Positions 5,981-40,208 of a stretch of DNA of 53,033 bases are shown one piece after another. Position numbers and translations under genes: made by a program. The stretch covers positions 1-53,033 of the forward strand of contig CAMDED010000039.1 in NCBI GenBank assembly GCA_945893365.1. The letters are read 5' to 3'. The stretch comes from Candidatus Sulfopaludibacter sp. SbA3 (GTDB lineage Bacteria; Acidobacteriota; Terriglobia; Bryobacterales; Bryobacteraceae). A model generated the notes under the pieces. The model was not told the DNA's origin and ran no database searches. It was given only the letters and a program-made list of their open reading frames with translations. Position 1 is the stretch's first letter. Every line of letters starts with the position of its first letter.

Positions 5981-7141
5981 ATGTTCCGTTATCTGCCGCT
6001 CGTGGTCAAGAACTGCTGGCGCAACCGCCGGCGCACGACGTTGACGATTATCAGTATCGGCGCGTCCCTCTGTTTGCTCGGCGTGCTGATGGCCATCTAC
6101 CACGCGTTTTACTTCAGCGACCCGCCGCCCGAGCAGGCTCTACGGCTGGTCACGCGGAACCGCGTGTCGCTTACCTTCCAGATGCCGCAGGCCTATCGCG
6201 AGCAGATCAAGCAGATCCCCGGCGTGCGAGAAGTCATGATTTCGCAGTGGTTCGGCGGAACGTACAAGGACCGCCGTCCGGAAAACATGTTCGCCCGCTT
6301 CGCCTCTGAACCGGATCGCCTTTTCACGATCCACGGCGAGATGAGGGTCCCGGAAAATCAGAAGAAGGCGTTTCAACGGGAGCGCTCCGCGTGCCTGGTG
6401 GGCAAAGCGCTGGCCGATAAATACGGTTGGAAGCTCGGCGACCGGATCACGATCGTGGGGGACATTTTTCCGCTTAACCTCGAACTGACGCTTCGCGCCA
6501 TCTACGAGGCGGACCTGAACAACGAGACCCTCTACTTCAATCGCGAATACCTTGAGGAGAGCCTGTCGGAAAGGCGCCGGGGCAACGCGGGGACGTTCAA
6601 CATTCTCGCCGACAGCCCGGAATCGGTGCCTCGCATCGCGGCCGCCGTCGACACGAAATTTCGAAACTCCTCGGCGGCCGAGACCAAGACGGAAGCGGAG
6701 CAGGCATTTCAGTTGGGATTCATCTCCGCGATGGGCAACGTGAAGCTGTTCCTGCTAAGCATCTGCGGGGCGGTGACGTTTACGATCATGCTGGTGTCGG
6801 CGAACACCATGGCGATGTCGGTGCGCGAGCGCGTCAGGGAGGTCGGCGTGCTGCGCACGCTCGGGTTCACGCCGGCGGCGATCATGGGTATGATCCTCGG
6901 CGAGGCCGTGGCGATTTCGATCATCGGCGGAGTAATCGGTTGCGGTCTCGCTTCGCTGCTTTGCGGCGTAGTGCGGAGCGCGCCGGCGTTCATCCTGCAA
7001 TTGAAAACGTTGTCGATTACGCCGCCGGTCGCGGCGGCATGTATCGGCGTGGCGGCCTTCATCGGGCTTGTGAGCTCGGCCGTGCCGGCCTGGAGCGCCT
7101 CGCGCACGCCGATTGTCGAAGCGCTGCGCGCATCCGACTAG
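5981..7141 (+). CDS. ABC transporter permease, MacB/FtsX type
   Basis: A 386-residue integral membrane protein. The first helix is near residues 20-40 ([20 protein letters not shown]), then a periplasmic domain of about 200 residues, then three helices in the C-terminal third, with [20 protein letters not shown] between the second and third, the classical FtsX/MacB coupling motif. GAGGGAAT precedes the ATG at suitable distance. The gene opens a four-gene operon of two permeases, a fusion protein and an ATPase, which is a complete lipoprotein- or antibiotic-type exporter. Unlike the one-gene MacB, here the ATPase is separate. The natural substrate cannot be told from sequence. Confidence 0.88.
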
Positions 7142-7167
7142 GCCCGTACGGAACTTGGATTAGAAAA

Positions 7168-8334
7168 ATGGCGATCCCCCTTTCCTATAACTTCCGGAAC
7201 CTCATCGTCAGAAAGACCACCACGATCATGACGGCGCTCGGCATCGCGCTTACGGTGGCGGTGCTGCTCTCGATTCTGGCGCTTGTCGATGGACTTCGCA
7301 CCGCGTTCACGGCGTCGGGAAATCCGCTGCATGTGCTCGTGATGCGGAAAGGCTCGGATTCGGAACTTACCAGCAACTTCACGCGTACCGGATATCAGGA
7401 CCTGAAGTTCAAGGCCGGTATCGCCAGGAACAAGGCGGGCGAGCCGATGGCGTCCCTCGAGATCGTGACCGTGATCAATCTGCCCAGCGTGACAAATCCG
7501 GATGGCAGTAACGTTACGCTTCGGGGCCTTTCGCCGGTGGGGATCGAGATGCGCGAGGTTTTACGGATTTCGGCTGGCCGCTGGTTTGAAACCGGCAAGC
7601 GCGAGGTCGTGGTTGGCCGTTCCATCGCCGCGCGCTTCCCGTCGGCTGCTCTGGGACAGCGGCTGAGATTCGGGCGCGGTGAATGGGATGTGGTGGGGAT
7701 CATGGACGCGGGAAAGTCCGCGAATAACAGCGAGATTTTCGCCGACCTCAACCAGGTGAGCTCCGATTTCCAGCGAACGGAGGTGCTGAGCTCGGCCCTG
7801 GTGCGCGCCGTCGACCCGGTTGCGGCCGCCGCGCTTGTCAACGACATCAACAACGACCAGCGTCTCAACACGGGAGCGCGCACCGAAGCGGAGTACTACG
7901 AATCGCAAACCAGCTCCGCCGTGCCTATTCAGTTTCTTGGGATGTTCATCTCCGCGATCATGGCCGTGGGCAGCAGTTTCGCCGCCATGAACACCATGTA
8001 CGCCGCGGTCGCCCGCCGCGCGCGCGAGATCGGCACCTTGCGGGTGTTGGGGTTTTCGCGGGGCAGCATTCTGTTCAGCTTCTTCGTGGAATCCGTTCTG
8101 CTGGCCTTGCTCGGCGGCATCCTCGGATGTCTGCTCGTGCTGCCCTTGAATGGCGTGACGACGGGGATGTCGAACTTCGTGACGTTCAGCGAGATCGCGT
8201 TCGACTTCAGCATCGGGCCTTCGATCATGGCGACCGGAGTAGCCTTCGCGGTGGTGCTAGGCGCCCTTGGCGGCTTTTTTCCCGCGCGCATGGCTGCAAA
8301 AAAGGAAATCCTCGTGGCACTACGCGAAGTCTAA
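7168..8334 (+). CDS. ABC transporter permease, MacB/FtsX type
   Basis: A 388-residue paralogue of the preceding permease, separated from it by 26 bases. The ATG at 7168 is preferred over in-frame codons inside the upstream gene because it starts [19 protein letters not shown], a normal N-terminus for this family, directly before the first helix. A periplasmic domain follows, and the last third has helices around [20 protein letters not shown], the cytoplasmic coupling segment. Two different permeases encoded side by side suggest a heterodimeric channel, as in LolCE-type systems. Function depends on the downstream ATPase and fusion protein. Confidence 0.87.
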
Positions 8335-8340
8335 TCCCCC

Positions 8341-9684
8341 ATGAGCGCCGATTTAAAAGACCTCAGAATCGACCGGACCAGGAAGCGCTCGCCCGAGCCC
8401 TCGCGATGGGCAACGCGCTGGATCGTGGGCGGCGTGCTCCTGTTCGCGGCGCTGGGAGCGGGACGTTTCGTGTATGGCAAGCTGAATGCCCCGATAGAGG
8501 TGGAAGTAATGCGGGTCCAGGCCGCGAGCGCCGGCGGTTCGGGGACGGAGCCGGGCGTGATACTGAATGCCACAGGCTACATTGTGGCGCATCACAAGAT
8601 TCAGGTTGCGTCGAAGGTGCTTGGCAAGGTGGCTTGGATCGGCGTCGATAAAGCCGACAAAGTCAAGGAAGGGCAGATCATCGTGCGGCTCGAGGACGAC
8701 GAGTATCGCGCCCAGCTTCAGCAGGCGACCGGGCAGTTGGCGAACCTCGAGGCCCGTCTCAAGGAATTGCTAAGCGGGTCGAGACCCGAAGAGATCGCGG
8801 TCGCCGAGGCGAATCTCAACCAGGCCAAGGCGGATCTCGAGAACAGCCGCATCGGCCTCGCGCGAACGGAAAAGCTTGTAGCGGCCACGGTGTCGCCTCA
8901 ACAGCAGCTTGACGATGCGAAGGCGCGGCACGATTCCGCCGTGGCCCGCGTCCGTTCGCTCGAACGAACGCATGAGTTGGCGCGAATCGGTCCCCGCGCC
9001 GAGCAGATCGAAGCCGTGCGCGGGCAGATCGAACAGGCGCGCGGCTCCGTCGCGTTCTACCAGACGCAGCTCAACAACACCGTCATCCGCGCCCCCAGTG
9101 CGGGCACCATTCTCGAGCGCGCCGTCGAGAAGGGCGAGTTTGTCACCACCAGTTTCGTGGGGGAACGCGGCGCCAAGGGTTATGTCGTCTCGCTCGCCGA
9201 TCTCAACGATTTGCAAGTGGAGCTGGATATCAGCCAGAACGATTTCGCGCGGCTGAAATCGAACCAGCGCGGCATCATTACCACGGACGCTTTTCCCGAC
9301 AGAAAGTACCAAGGCGTAATTAACGAGATATCGCCTGAAGCGAATCGTCAAAAGGCGACGGTGCAGGTCAAGGTGAAAGTGGAGAATCCGGATTCCTATC
9401 TGCGGCCCGAAATGAATGCGAGCGTGGCGTTTCTATCCGATGAAAAGCCCGCCGCGGGGGGTACGCCACTGAAGGCTGTCCTGACGATACCGGCTTCGGC
9501 GGTGCGCGGCGACGCCGTTTTCGTTCTGCTTGGCGGCAAGGCCGTGCGCCGCGTCATAAAGGCGGGATCGACGACGAGTCAAGGTGTACGCGTGGAGGAA
9601 GGGCTGATCGGAGGCGAGGATTTGATCGTCGCTCCGCCGGCAAACCTCAAAGAGGGAGACGCCGTCCAGCGGAGGAAGAGTTGA
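8341..9684 (+). CDS. Periplasmic adaptor (membrane-fusion protein) of ABC exporter
   Basis: A 447-residue HlyD/MacA-type adaptor. A single N-terminal membrane anchor (about 25-45, [20 protein letters not shown]) is followed by a lipoyl-like half motif, a long helical hairpin rich in Ala, Gln, Glu and Arg (roughly 115-235), the second lipoyl half ([20 protein letters not shown]) and a beta-barrel with a C-terminal membrane-proximal domain. Adaptors of this kind bridge the inner-membrane pump to an outer-membrane channel. No outer-membrane TolC-like gene is linked here, so a shared one must be used. It starts six bases after the permease stop and its own stop overlaps the ATPase start. Confidence 0.88.
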
Positions 9685-10385
9685 CCACGGAAGAAACGGT
9701 AATTCAGGCACGAGCTCTCACGAAGGAATTCGTGCGCGATGAGTTTCACGTAATCGCGCTTCAAGACGTGGATATCGATATCCATAAGGGGGAGTTCGTG
9801 GCGTTAATGGGGCCGTCGGGATCGGGAAAATCGACGCTCCTGCACCTGATCGCGGCCATGGACTACGCGACGGGGGGAGAAATCCGGGTTCTGGGCGAGA
9901 ATCTTCGCGCCATGAGCGACGGCGAGATCGCGCGCTGGCGCAACCACAACGTAGGCTTCATTTTCCAGCAGTTCAATCTGATTCCGGTGCTTACTGCGCT
10001 CGAGAACGTGGAACTGCCGCTCAAACTGACGAATTTGAACAAGCAGGAGCGTAACGACCACGCGACCACGGCGCTCAAGCTTGTGGGGCTCGGAGACAGA
10101 CTCGGGCACTTTCCGCGCCAGCTTTCGGGCGGGCAGGAGCAGCGTGTGGCCATTGCGCGCGCGATCGTGACCGACCCGGCGCTGATCCTCGCCGACGAGC
10201 CGACCGGCAATCTGGACGCGGCCTCGGCTCAGGAAGTTTTGAGTATACTTTCCAGGCTGAATAAGGAGTACGGTAAGACGATCGTCATGGTGACGCACGA
10301 TGCGCACGCCGCCCGCTCGGCCACCAAAGTCAGGCATCTGGAGAAGGGCGCGCTGTTACCGGAAGGGCAGCTTCCGGCGGACTGA
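9681..10385 (+). CDS. ABC transporter ATP-binding protein, LolD/MacB class
   Basis: A 234-residue ATPase. The start is a TTG at 9681, overlapping the adaptor stop (TTGA) and preceded by a strong GGAGGAAG ribosome-binding site inside the end of the upstream gene, so it is translationally coupled. Walker A is GPSGSGKST (44-52), the Q-loop is in [10 protein letters not shown], the signature is [14 protein letters not shown] and Walker B is [12 protein letters not shown], with a switch His in VTHDAHAA. The [10 protein letters not shown] and GNLD wording is characteristic of the LolD/MacB group that powers mechanotransmission-type exporters. It is the last gene of the four-gene unit and points toward the convergent GGDEF gene. 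Confidence 0.93.
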
Positions 10386-37828: not shown

Positions 37829-38071
37829 CCGGGCGCCCGACAGCCCGACCGTCACTACGGGAAGGGGCCACATCGACATCACGAGGATCACAATCGGCTG
37901 GTGGTTGTTTCGAAGCTTCCGTTCGAGCATTGCAAGTGGACGCACAGCACGATCTCCAAACAGCGGGCTTGGCGGGGGAAATGCTCCGCGTGATCACGGG
38001 CACGGCTCTGCGGCTCGGCGTAGCTACACTGGCTCGTTGACGAGCCGACGGCCTTCAATTCAATAGGCCGC
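37829..38071. other. Intergenic DNA downstream of the sigma gene
   Basis: Several open frames overlap here but none has a supported start or a recognised protein. The + frame ending at 38040 contains a helix-like run (LQVDAQHDLQTAGLAGEML) without known relatives to me. I read the stretch as remnant DNA leading into the mobile-element debris that follows. Confidence 0.3.
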
Positions 38072-38260
38072 TTAGACGCGCCGGGCTGAGGGCGCTGTTC
38101 GGACGATAAAACAATCTCCACTCATGACGAGCGGGGTAACCAATCCGCTGCGTATCGTGGAAGTGGATTTCGTTCGGCACTTCCGGCGCCGGACGGCGGC
38201 CAGAGCGGCAAGACCGAGGAACGACAGAGCAACCGTGGACGGTTCTGGAATCTGGGAGTC
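38072..38260 (-). pseudogene. PEP-CTERM protein, truncated C-terminal remnant
   Basis: On the minus strand from about 38257, SQIPEPSTVALSFLGLAALA followed by AVRRRKCRTK is a clear PEP-CTERM tail (Pro-Glu-Pro, hydrophobic helix, basic cluster). Upstream of it (higher coordinates) the frame runs into the opposite-strand transposase remnant, so the N-terminal part of the gene is gone. After the basic cluster the frame runs on for about 30 residues instead of stopping, suggesting a lost stop or a frameshift. The fragment is a scar of a surface protein gene cut by an insertion. Confidence 0.65.
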
Positions 38261-38782
38261 CAGATATCGACCGACGTGCTGGCATTCGATACAACCAACT
38301 TTGACACGCCCATCGCGACCACCACACCGGGAGAACTGGCGCGGCGAGGTCGTGCCAAAAGCAAGCGAAGCGATCTGCGCGTGGTGGGACTGGCGGCTCT
38401 GGTAAGCGAGACCGGAAATGTGCCGTTGCTGCACCGCACCTACCCCGGCAACGGATCGGACCGGACGGTGCTCGCTGAGTGTCTGAACGCACTGGGCAAA
38501 CTGTACGATGCTTCGGACAATGCCGAGGAGCGCACCCGGCCGTCCTGCCGCACTTTGGTGCGCGACGGCGGATCGTGGAGCGAACAATTGGAACTCGATC
38601 TGGGTGTCGCAGGCTGCTATACCCTGATCTCGCTGCCTTTGAGTCATAGCGCCTCGTAGTTAGCGCTGGAGCCGGCAGCGCGGCGAGGAGCGATGAAGTC
38701 TCTGGGAGGGAAGTTGGAACAGGTCCGTGCGGCACGGGTGAGGACGCGGGTGGGCGAACTGGACCGCACCCTCGCGAGCTAA
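38258..38782 (+). pseudogene. IS1634/IS4-type transposase remnant with in-frame stop
   Basis: The frame from LGVQISTDVLAFDTTNFDT onwards contains FDTTNFDT, the first catalytic-Asp motif of IS4/IS1634-type DDE transposases, then LARRGRAKSKRSDLRVVGLA, LLHRTYPGNGSD and LVRDGGSWSEQLELDL. It is stopped by a TAG at 38657-38659 after SLPLSHSAS, and the same frame continues with LALEPAARRGAMKSLGGKLE and ends at a TAA at 38780-38782. The continuity of the frame argues for a point nonsense mutation. The 5' end joins the PEP-CTERM remnant and no inverted repeat is seen. The copy cannot make an active transposase. Confidence 0.75.
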
Positions 38783-38805
38783 CCATAGTAAGACTATGGT
38801 AGTCT
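38782..38805. promoter_or_regulatory. Palindromic operator upstream of padR
   Basis: Two overlapping inverted repeats lie just before padR: ACCATAG-5 bases-CTATGGT at 38782-38800, and AGACTA-TGG-TAGTCT at 38791-38805. The pair ends 10 bases before the ATG at 38816. PadR regulators bind palindromes of this size and usually repress their own gene; the position, overlapping the expected promoter, fits autorepression. Binding is inferred. Confidence 0.65.
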
Positions 38806-38815
38806 AACTATACGA

Positions 38816-39142
38816 ATGCGAACCGAAATCCCTCCCGGCACTCTGTACATGCTAATCCTCAAGTCGCTCGCGCTTCTGGGCGCGCAGCACGGCTATGGTA
38901 TCGCCCTGCACATCCAGCAAGTCACAGGGGACGTCCTGCAGGTGGAGGAAGGTTCGCTCTACCCGGCCTTGCAGCGCATGCTGCTTAAAGGATGGGTAAA
39001 AGCGGAATGGCGGCAGACGGAGAACAAACGCCGGGCGAGGTACTACACGCTCACGCCCGCGGGCCGCAAACAACTGGTCGCGGAGGTTCGCGAGTTCGAG
39101 CGGGCGATGGCCGCGATCCGCCGTGTGATTCAACCCGTATAG
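38816..39142 (+). CDS. PadR-family transcriptional regulator
   Basis: A 108-residue winged-helix protein. PPGTLYMLILKSLALLGAQH followed by GYGIALHIQQ is the start of the PadR winged helix, EEGSLYPALQRMLLKGWVKA is the recognition part, and RARYYTLTPAGRKQLVAEV the wing. The protein is of the small PadR class, with a short C-terminal dimerisation helix. Its promoter carries the palindrome at 38782-38805. In Acidobacteriota these regulators usually precede an orphan duplicated permease (ADOP) gene; here that gene is broken, so the regulator may now control only itself or distant targets. Confidence 0.92.
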   Translation: MRTEIPPGTLYMLILKSLALLGAQHGYGIALHIQQVTGDVLQVEEGSLYPALQRMLLKGWVKAEWRQTENKRRARYYTLTPAGRKQLVAEVREFERAMAAIRRVIQPV

Positions 39143-39145
39143 GAG

Positions 39146-39480
39146 GGAACAACGGCTGAATTGTTGAGGAACCGGCGGGGCTGCTTCGTCGCGACGATAT
39201 CGGCTCCGGCTTGCACGAAGAGATCGAAGCCCATCTCGAAATGAAGGCTTCGGCGACGAACGATCCGCACGCCGCGCGCCGCCAATTTGGAAACACGGCT
39301 CTGCTGCCCGAAGGTGCGCGGGCGGCGTAGGGATGGCCGCGAATCGAGGCGTGGCGGCGACGTCGGTCTGGCGCCGCGCGCGCCGCGCGGTGAGACGGAA
39401 CGCGAGCTGGGAACGACTTTGCTCGGCTGCCGCTCCATGCCCGTGCTGGTGGCTCGTCGCGAGCGAAATGATCGCCGTGA
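39146..39480 (+). pseudogene. ADOP-type macrolide-export permease remnant
   Basis: The frame starting at 39181 (LLRRDDIGSGLHEEIEAHLE, then MKASATNDPHAARRQFGNTA) matches the N-terminal cytoplasmic domain of acidobacterial duplicated orphan permeases, with the E-x-x-x-H-L-E-M and R-R-x-F-G-N-x elements. A TAG at 39328-39330 interrupts it, and the same frame continues GWPRIEAW, which fits the W-G-W-x-x-I-E motif of the family, so the TAG probably replaced a TGG. No proper start codon is found and an earlier frame change near 39160-39180 is likely. The membrane domains are missing. The end coordinate is approximate. Confidence 0.6.
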
Positions 39481-39554: not shown

Positions 39555-40208
39555 TCAGGCGGCTTCGCAGCGGATGGCTTCTTCGATCTCACCGATCTCC
39601 AAACGGAAGTCCTGCGCCAGATCCGCGGCCGAATCGCCGGCCTTATATCGCTCGTAGATGGATGAAACCGGTATTCCGGTTCCATCGATCACGGGCCGGC
39701 CGAAGGAAATCGCCGGATTCATGACTGCGACGCGGGGGTCAGTCGCCGGAGCCGCCTCCGTCTGCGTGTCCCGAGTGAAAGGATAAAGCTTGACGGGGAG
39801 CCCCTTCGCGTCCCGTTCGATTCGCTTGAGGTAAACGCCGATGATTTCCTTCATCGCTCGCTGGCCCTCCAGAGAGGCGTTGATCAGGTCGCCATCGCGC
39901 TCCACGAAAAGGTCCAGACCGTCTGTCTGGAAGGATTGATCGATGAGTGGATGTTCGACCCGAAACTGGCGATGCACGCAGTCGAGCGCGCGGCGGACCG
40001 TCGGAAGCTTCACGCCGTGGCGGCGGCGAATCGCCGCGAGGACATGTGCCTCTACGAGTTTATGAAGGACAAATACTTCCTTTCGGAATCGTCCAGATTG
40101 ATCGGCGGCCCAGACCGTTTCGACTGTCCAACGACCGGGTACAGCGGCCTGCGACCAACTGCGCGGGGTTCCTTCCGGCATGCGCAGATAATGGGCAGCT
40201 TCAGCCAC
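39555..40208 (-). CDS. DUF433-domain antitoxin-like protein, frame-disrupted
   Basis: A 217-residue frame, one continuous ORF. The N-terminus (AEAAHYLRMPEGTPRSW) is a helix-turn-helix, and the end (VMNPAISFGRPVIDGTGIPV, then SSIYERYKAGDSAADLAQDF) is a typical DUF433 antitoxin domain. The part between about residues 21 and 50 does not look like the family, whereas the overlapping frame over 40058-40150 reads PLYPVVGQSKRSGPPINLDD and then SERKYLSFIN, which leads smoothly into LVEAHVLAAIRRRHGVKLP of the main frame. I infer two compensating frameshifts. The GTG start also lies late; an older start is probably around 40270. No toxin gene (for example DUF5615) is next to it. Confidence 0.65.
   Translation of the reverse strand: MAEAAHYLRMPEGTPRSWSQAAVPGRWTVETVWAADQSGRFRKEVFVLHKLVEAHVLAAIRRRHGVKLPTVRRALDCVHRQFRVEHPLIDQSFQTDGLDLFVERDGDLINASLEGQRAMKEIIGVYLKRIERDAKGLPVKLYPFTRDTQTEAAPATDPRVAVMNPAISFGRPVIDGTGIPVSSIYERYKAGDSAADLAQDFRLEIGEIEEAIRCEAA

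Follow-up and report, generated by a model that had tools for sequence, protein, structure and literature searches.

PadR regulators of the acidobacterial family TIGR03433 usually have an ADOP permease (TIGR03434) as their neighbour. Among other described PadR proteins, those of the LmrR and LftR type repress transporter genes; autorepression has been reported for LftR, LltR and LstR (PMC6624303), and for PadR/LmrR the motif in print is ATGT/ACAT, its halves separated by about 8–10 nt (PMC3506622), according to the accessible portions of these two sources. A search made mostly outside subscription journals found no paper on the operators of the PadR–ADOP family.

Here we describe a padR locus of Candidatus Sulfopaludibacter sp. 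SbA3, located in the window, by which we mean the whole 53,033-nt stretch of DNA analysed (contig C39 of a draft genome of 7.88 Mb in 299 contigs; Table 1). Like the LmrR- and LftR-type repressors, to which it is related in fold and sequence, the window PadR has a dyad at its own gene. This dyad departs from the motif given in the accessible portion of the literature source: it reads ATAG-N5-CTAT, is arranged in tandem and, in relatives, often overlaps the start codon. The window PadR is a member of TIGR03433 and its second copy, on contig C23, has an ADOP neighbour, as in TIGR03433/TIGR03434 modules, but the window itself retains only a dead stub of the permease. We favour, with a probability of roughly 0.7, the reading that the locus is a truncated padR–ADOP duplicate whose PadR dimer would bind two tandem dyads, repress its own transcription and probably also bind in trans at C23.

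Table 1. Coordinates of features in and around the padR block of the window
Feature	Position	Strand	Description
IS1634-family transposase remnant	38276..38659	+	49.9 bits, below curated cut-off of 100
Duplicated block	38776..39362	+	560/587 positions identical to C23:39219-39805 (-), about 95%
Candidate operator unit 1, TAG-N5-CTA	38786..38796	+	within ACCATAGT-aag-ACTATGGT, 38782-38800
Candidate operator unit 2, TAG-N5-CTA	38800..38810	+	14 bp from unit 1
padR	38816..39142	+	intact, 108 aa, member of TIGR03433 (padR_acidobact)
Dead ADOP stub	39152..39359	+	ATG lost, 1-nt frame change, TAG at 39328-39330, then cut off
FMN-dependent dehydrogenase gene fragment	39356..39453	+	98 bp, 89% identical to part of a gene on contig C84; abuts stub

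An intact regulator beside a dead permease stub

The regulator is intact, as a preliminary description of this DNA had held. It scores 138.2 bits against TIGR03433 (curated cut-off 101.8) and 67.9 bits against the Pfam PadR winged-helix domain PF03551 (cut-off 27), making it a member of both. Solved PadR proteins match it in sequence and fold, and its structure model (mean pLDDT 90.4) has helices at residues 9–21, 26–37, 45–58 and 81–105 and strands at 61–67 and 73–79. The genome holds 27 PadR matches, 18 of which have an ADOP match close behind, an assessment based on 29 of 65 ADOP matches. Three further PadR genes of this genome (L023, L024 and L027) look truncated, which means that the window is not alone in having a broken regulator module.

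Downstream of padR, one frame reads as the N-terminus of an ADOP permease. Relative to the C23 copy, this stub has lost its ATG, carries a 1-nt frame change and has a TAG at codon 60, in place of the Trp that 72 of 76 aligned ADOPs carry. The permease is thus dead, with the stop codon at a family Trp, as had been proposed; the further proposal that the N-terminal domain survives does not hold, because homology stops at about 39356–39362, after some 69 codons, leaving a stub much shorter than that whole domain. None of the 65 TIGR03434 matches considered falls at 39150–39480, and the stub is recognized only through the C23 copy. With only this stub, the window padR lacks an intact ADOP neighbour. 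Elsewhere in the window, at 5981–10385, lies a separate MacB-like export set that is apparently complete, with two permeases of the FtsX/MacB type, an HlyD-type protein and an ABC ATPase in succession.

A duplicate cut off within a patchwork of gene pieces

Several lines of evidence support our reading. First, the block is a duplicate, about 95% identical to a C23 locus with a nearly full-length ADOP gene. The C23 copy comprises the operator, padR and ADOP matches to model positions 2–175 and 175–802 of 803; as these matches lie in two frames, the C23 permease is frame-shifted in this assembly, be it in reality or through an assembly error. Beyond the C23 copy, the next nearest PadR of this genome is at most 57% identical. 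A close copy is absent from two other genomes of the same genus, 86% and 73% complete: G061 has none, and the match with the best E-value in G106 is 52% identical.

The surroundings of the block are of mixed origin. To its left lie the IS1634-family remnant and three pieces, at 37892–38265, that are 73–88% identical to a single stretch of contig C97; to its right is the dehydrogenase fragment, whose C84 counterpart is an FMN-dependent dehydrogenase gene (PF01070, 422 bits). As the stub ends at this C84-like fragment and further gene pieces lie on the left, the permease was cut off at a junction within a patchwork of gene pieces, and it also decayed. The C97 counterpart of the three pieces, on the reverse strand, resembles a PEP-CTERM sorting end when judged by eye. 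An intact reverse-strand open reading frame at 39555–40208 has a DUF433 domain (51.4 bits) and a weak helix-turn-helix match; we take it to be antitoxin-like in look.

These boundaries bear on two other accounts of the block. The window could hold an original module that is losing its permease in place, with C23 as an independent paralogue, and the several lesions of the stub do show decay after the copy arose; we regard this as unlikely, since the 95% identity starts and stops abruptly between flanks that are unrelated on both sides, the right end abuts the dehydrogenase fragment and no other PadR of the genome comes near the similarity of the C23 copy. The earlier view of a module in loss survives in its intact regulator, conserved site and dead stub, but its reading as an original locus decaying where it stands is not supported. 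The block could also be chimeric or misplaced in the assembly, a draft of 299 contigs in which some ADOP matches are split or contain stops. With 27 differences from C23 scattered along the block, and flanks that differ on both sides, such an artefact is very improbable.

Two tandem units of one dyad before padR

Both palindromes that had been noted just before the padR start are confirmed: ACCATAGT-aag-ACTATGGT is exact (arms 8/8), and ATAGTaAGACTA-tgg-TAGTCTAACTAT, at 38785–38811, has arms matching at 11 of 12 positions. They had been taken for a double operator; judged by sequence, the first palindrome is one unit, and the second arises from the symmetry that a tandem pair of one candidate dyad creates between its members. 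The 19-bp pattern of the first palindrome (at most 2 mismatches) and the tandem pattern TAG-N5-CTA-N3-TAG-N5-CTA (at most 1 mismatch) each have one match in the window and none in 100 shuffles. Arms of 11/12 with a loop of 0–7 nt are by themselves not rare, with 4 in the 53-kb window. The most likely role of the dyad would be that of an autorepression operator.

Some features of the window count against our reading. Its operator has one mismatch that is absent from C23, where the 12-bp dyad is perfect; the padR ATG lies 5 nt beyond unit 2, so the start-codon overlap of relatives is missing; and a sigma-70 scan of 38600–39250 found no promoter. Neither ATGT nor ACAT, the halves of the published PadR motif, occurs in 38760–38815. 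The window and L050, L055, L056, L058, L060, L065 and L072 share a CTAAC(C) string whose distance upstream of the operator varies; its longer form GCTAACC occurs in the window, C23 and several relatives. The string is not a plain −35 box.

Scanning the same genome for the operator beside padR genes, as the preliminary description had suggested, returned the C23 copy, and the exact tandem form is confined to C39 and C23. A genome-wide count of the operator was rejected as evidence: it gave 2 forward and 2 reverse hits, comparable to the 1 forward and 4 reverse hits of a reversed-pattern control, and so has no power alone.

Conservation of the dyad in related loci

Second, the dyad is conserved. 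From 109 loci (29 found by a DNA query that included the operator, 80 by protein), 23 duplicates and one locus with too little upstream sequence were dropped, leaving 85. TAG-N5-CTA occurs within −75 to +6 of padR in 70 of these 85 relatives, where dinucleotide shuffles predict 2.2, and in 3 of 1519 windows used as controls; by source, it is present at 26/28 DNA-query loci and 44/57 protein-found loci. The palindrome thus does recur near other padR genes. The other 15 of the 85 lack TAG-N5-CTA, which counts against our reading. Units repeat in tandem at 14 bp in L044, L045, L046, L080, L100, L108 and L130, and at 15 bp or 16 bp in other loci. The closest intact locus is L044, from a genome of the same family, with the same sequence around padR as L073 (Bryobacterales bacterium UBA690). 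The tandem pattern was also found in 22 of 150 family genomes, a count that includes hits regardless of their association with padR and is not used as evidence.

In 57 of the 85 relatives the padR ATG lies inside CTATG at the right edge of the dyad. A Shine–Dalgarno-like stretch at −14 to −4 accompanies only 2 of these 57 starts, and TTGAC at −45 to −42 accompanies 22. These features fit a leaderless or very short-leader mRNA and repression by covering the start region. A −10 box within the operator was considered and set aside: TANNNT stands at −12 to −7 in 18 of the 57 CTATG starts, but the dyad itself creates TANNNT at −10 in 34 of them, which leaves the promoter reading weak.

An ADOP gene adjoins padR in 76 of the 80 distinct relatives whose downstream sequence reaches 600 nt or more, a frequency that we count for our reading together with those of the dyad and of CTATG. 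Comparison with the relatives bears out the dyad and the usual permease neighbour; the start-codon overlap of many relatives is absent from the window. Nine close relatives are in records titled Gemmatimonadetes or Gemmatimonas (L126, L131, L135, L137, L139, L145, L146, L147 and L149), all except L139 with ADOP beside padR (8/9); either the family name is too narrow, or the module crosses phyla, or the bins are mixed.

The same loci bear on the possibility that the palindromes form a hairpin in a leader RNA rather than a DNA operator. Their two halves could pair in RNA, but many relatives have just one short unit, which ends on its right at the start codon, the spacing of repeated units is 14, 15 or 16 bp, and Rfam has no match within the window; a hairpin is accordingly the least probable of the alternatives that we weigh.

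Divergence between the two copies

Third, the copies have diverged unevenly. The padR copies differ in 8 codons, of which 5 are silent and 3 missense (Y49C, R72H and L79F). All of 9 outgroups carry the window residue at 49, 72 and 79, placing the three missense changes on the C23 side: the C23 PadR is altered at three conserved positions and the window PadR at none. Y49 lies in the recognition helix of the PadR model and L79 at the end of a wing strand, and the C23 PadR looks impaired. The silent changes can be placed in part, with those in codons 59 and 63 looking derived in the window. The chance of zero missense changes on the window side is 0.06–0.09 for 2 changes and 0.001–0.002 for 5; with 2 to 5 silent changes on that side, these values make a weak case for selection on the window padR, a point that we count against our reading. 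Operator and padR together differ from C23 at 9/367 sites and the stub at 17/213 (Fisher p 0.003), a count that leaves out six differences at the two edges of the block. This contrast and the placement of the missense changes count for our reading, and they suggest, weakly, that the window regulator is being kept.

It is nonetheless quite possible, if below even odds, that the entire window copy is dead and that the intact look of padR and operator is due only to the copy's young age. There are few changes to judge from, and the local target gene is gone; set against this are the divergence of the stub, about three times that of operator and padR, and the lack of any missense change on the window side.

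Residue 44 and the half-site

Among the 15 relatives without TAG-N5-CTA, 11 carry TCG-N5-CGA instead. Residue 44, which directly precedes helix 45–58 in the PadR model, is Glu in 70/70 TAG rows and Gly in 11/11 TCG rows of the set of 85; in that set, residue 46 and several other columns covary almost equally well, and the tree needs only 2 operator changes. We extended the comparison to distant paralogues, taking 120 of the 304 TIGR03433 matches in 8 genomes (9 to 83 per genome) together with this genome's own; two had no match and 143 rows were usable. TAG-N5-CTA occurs in 28 of these 143 (3.2 expected) and TCG-N5-CGA in 17 (3.0 expected), so the majority of distant paralogues carry neither core.

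In the resulting 230 rows, 102 with neither core were set aside and 128 have exactly one. Here Gly or Ser at residue 44 goes with TCG in 24/24 rows and other residues with TAG in 100/104, the discordant rows being L231, L258, L265 and L267. A palindrome caller that uses no motif called 68 of the 230 rows, with Glu44 accompanying A in 31/39 and Gly44 accompanying C in 14/14; among the Glu misses, at least L022 reflects the symmetry across a pair of tandem units. The tree of this test needs 7 operator changes and 4 residue-44 changes. With only about four changes at residue 44, shared descent could explain much of the association. When independent pairs are drawn on supported branches, the medians are 2.5 concordant, 0 opposite and 2.5 without difference, numbers at which a sign test cannot reach 0.05. 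The correspondence between residue 44 and the middle half-site base is thus a lead that falls short of a demonstration.

Proposed mechanism and implications

Under our preferred reading of a truncated duplicate, a PadR dimer on the tandem dyads, just before its own start codon, would shut the padR promoter. In a full module, such as the C23 copy, which we presume to be of the parental type, this operator would govern both padR and the permease that follows, and by analogy with the PadR family the permease would stay silent until a ligand releases PadR. In the window, the permease has been cut at the junction with unrelated DNA and has decayed beyond that, with little change in regulator and operator. 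Since the operators of C23 and the window are almost identical, binding of the window PadR to the C23 site in trans is probable; the window copy, with no permease of its own to control, may supply repressor to that site or may be a young leftover.

The PadR–ADOP family is large, and a conserved operator next to or over the start codon would allow direct prediction of repressor targets. The duplicate is a natural experiment on whether a regulator can persist after the loss of its local target by acting on a second copy, and the link with residue 44 offers a one-residue, one-base-pair test of PadR specificity. A broader proposal, possible but doubtful at present, is that the acidobacterial PadR family shares a common 13-bp dyad, with an inner half-site of TAG or TCG around five bases, in which residue 44 sets the middle base (C for Gly or Ser; A for Glu, Lys or Pro) and the outer bases separate paralogues. 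Such a dyad would often be fused to the padR start codon, with a leader too short for a ribosome site. If true, evolution would have produced a readable code of specificity for many repressors working in parallel, and C39 and C23 would be a live case of one code shared by two copies, of which one has lost its permease and the other has a regulator that is drifting.
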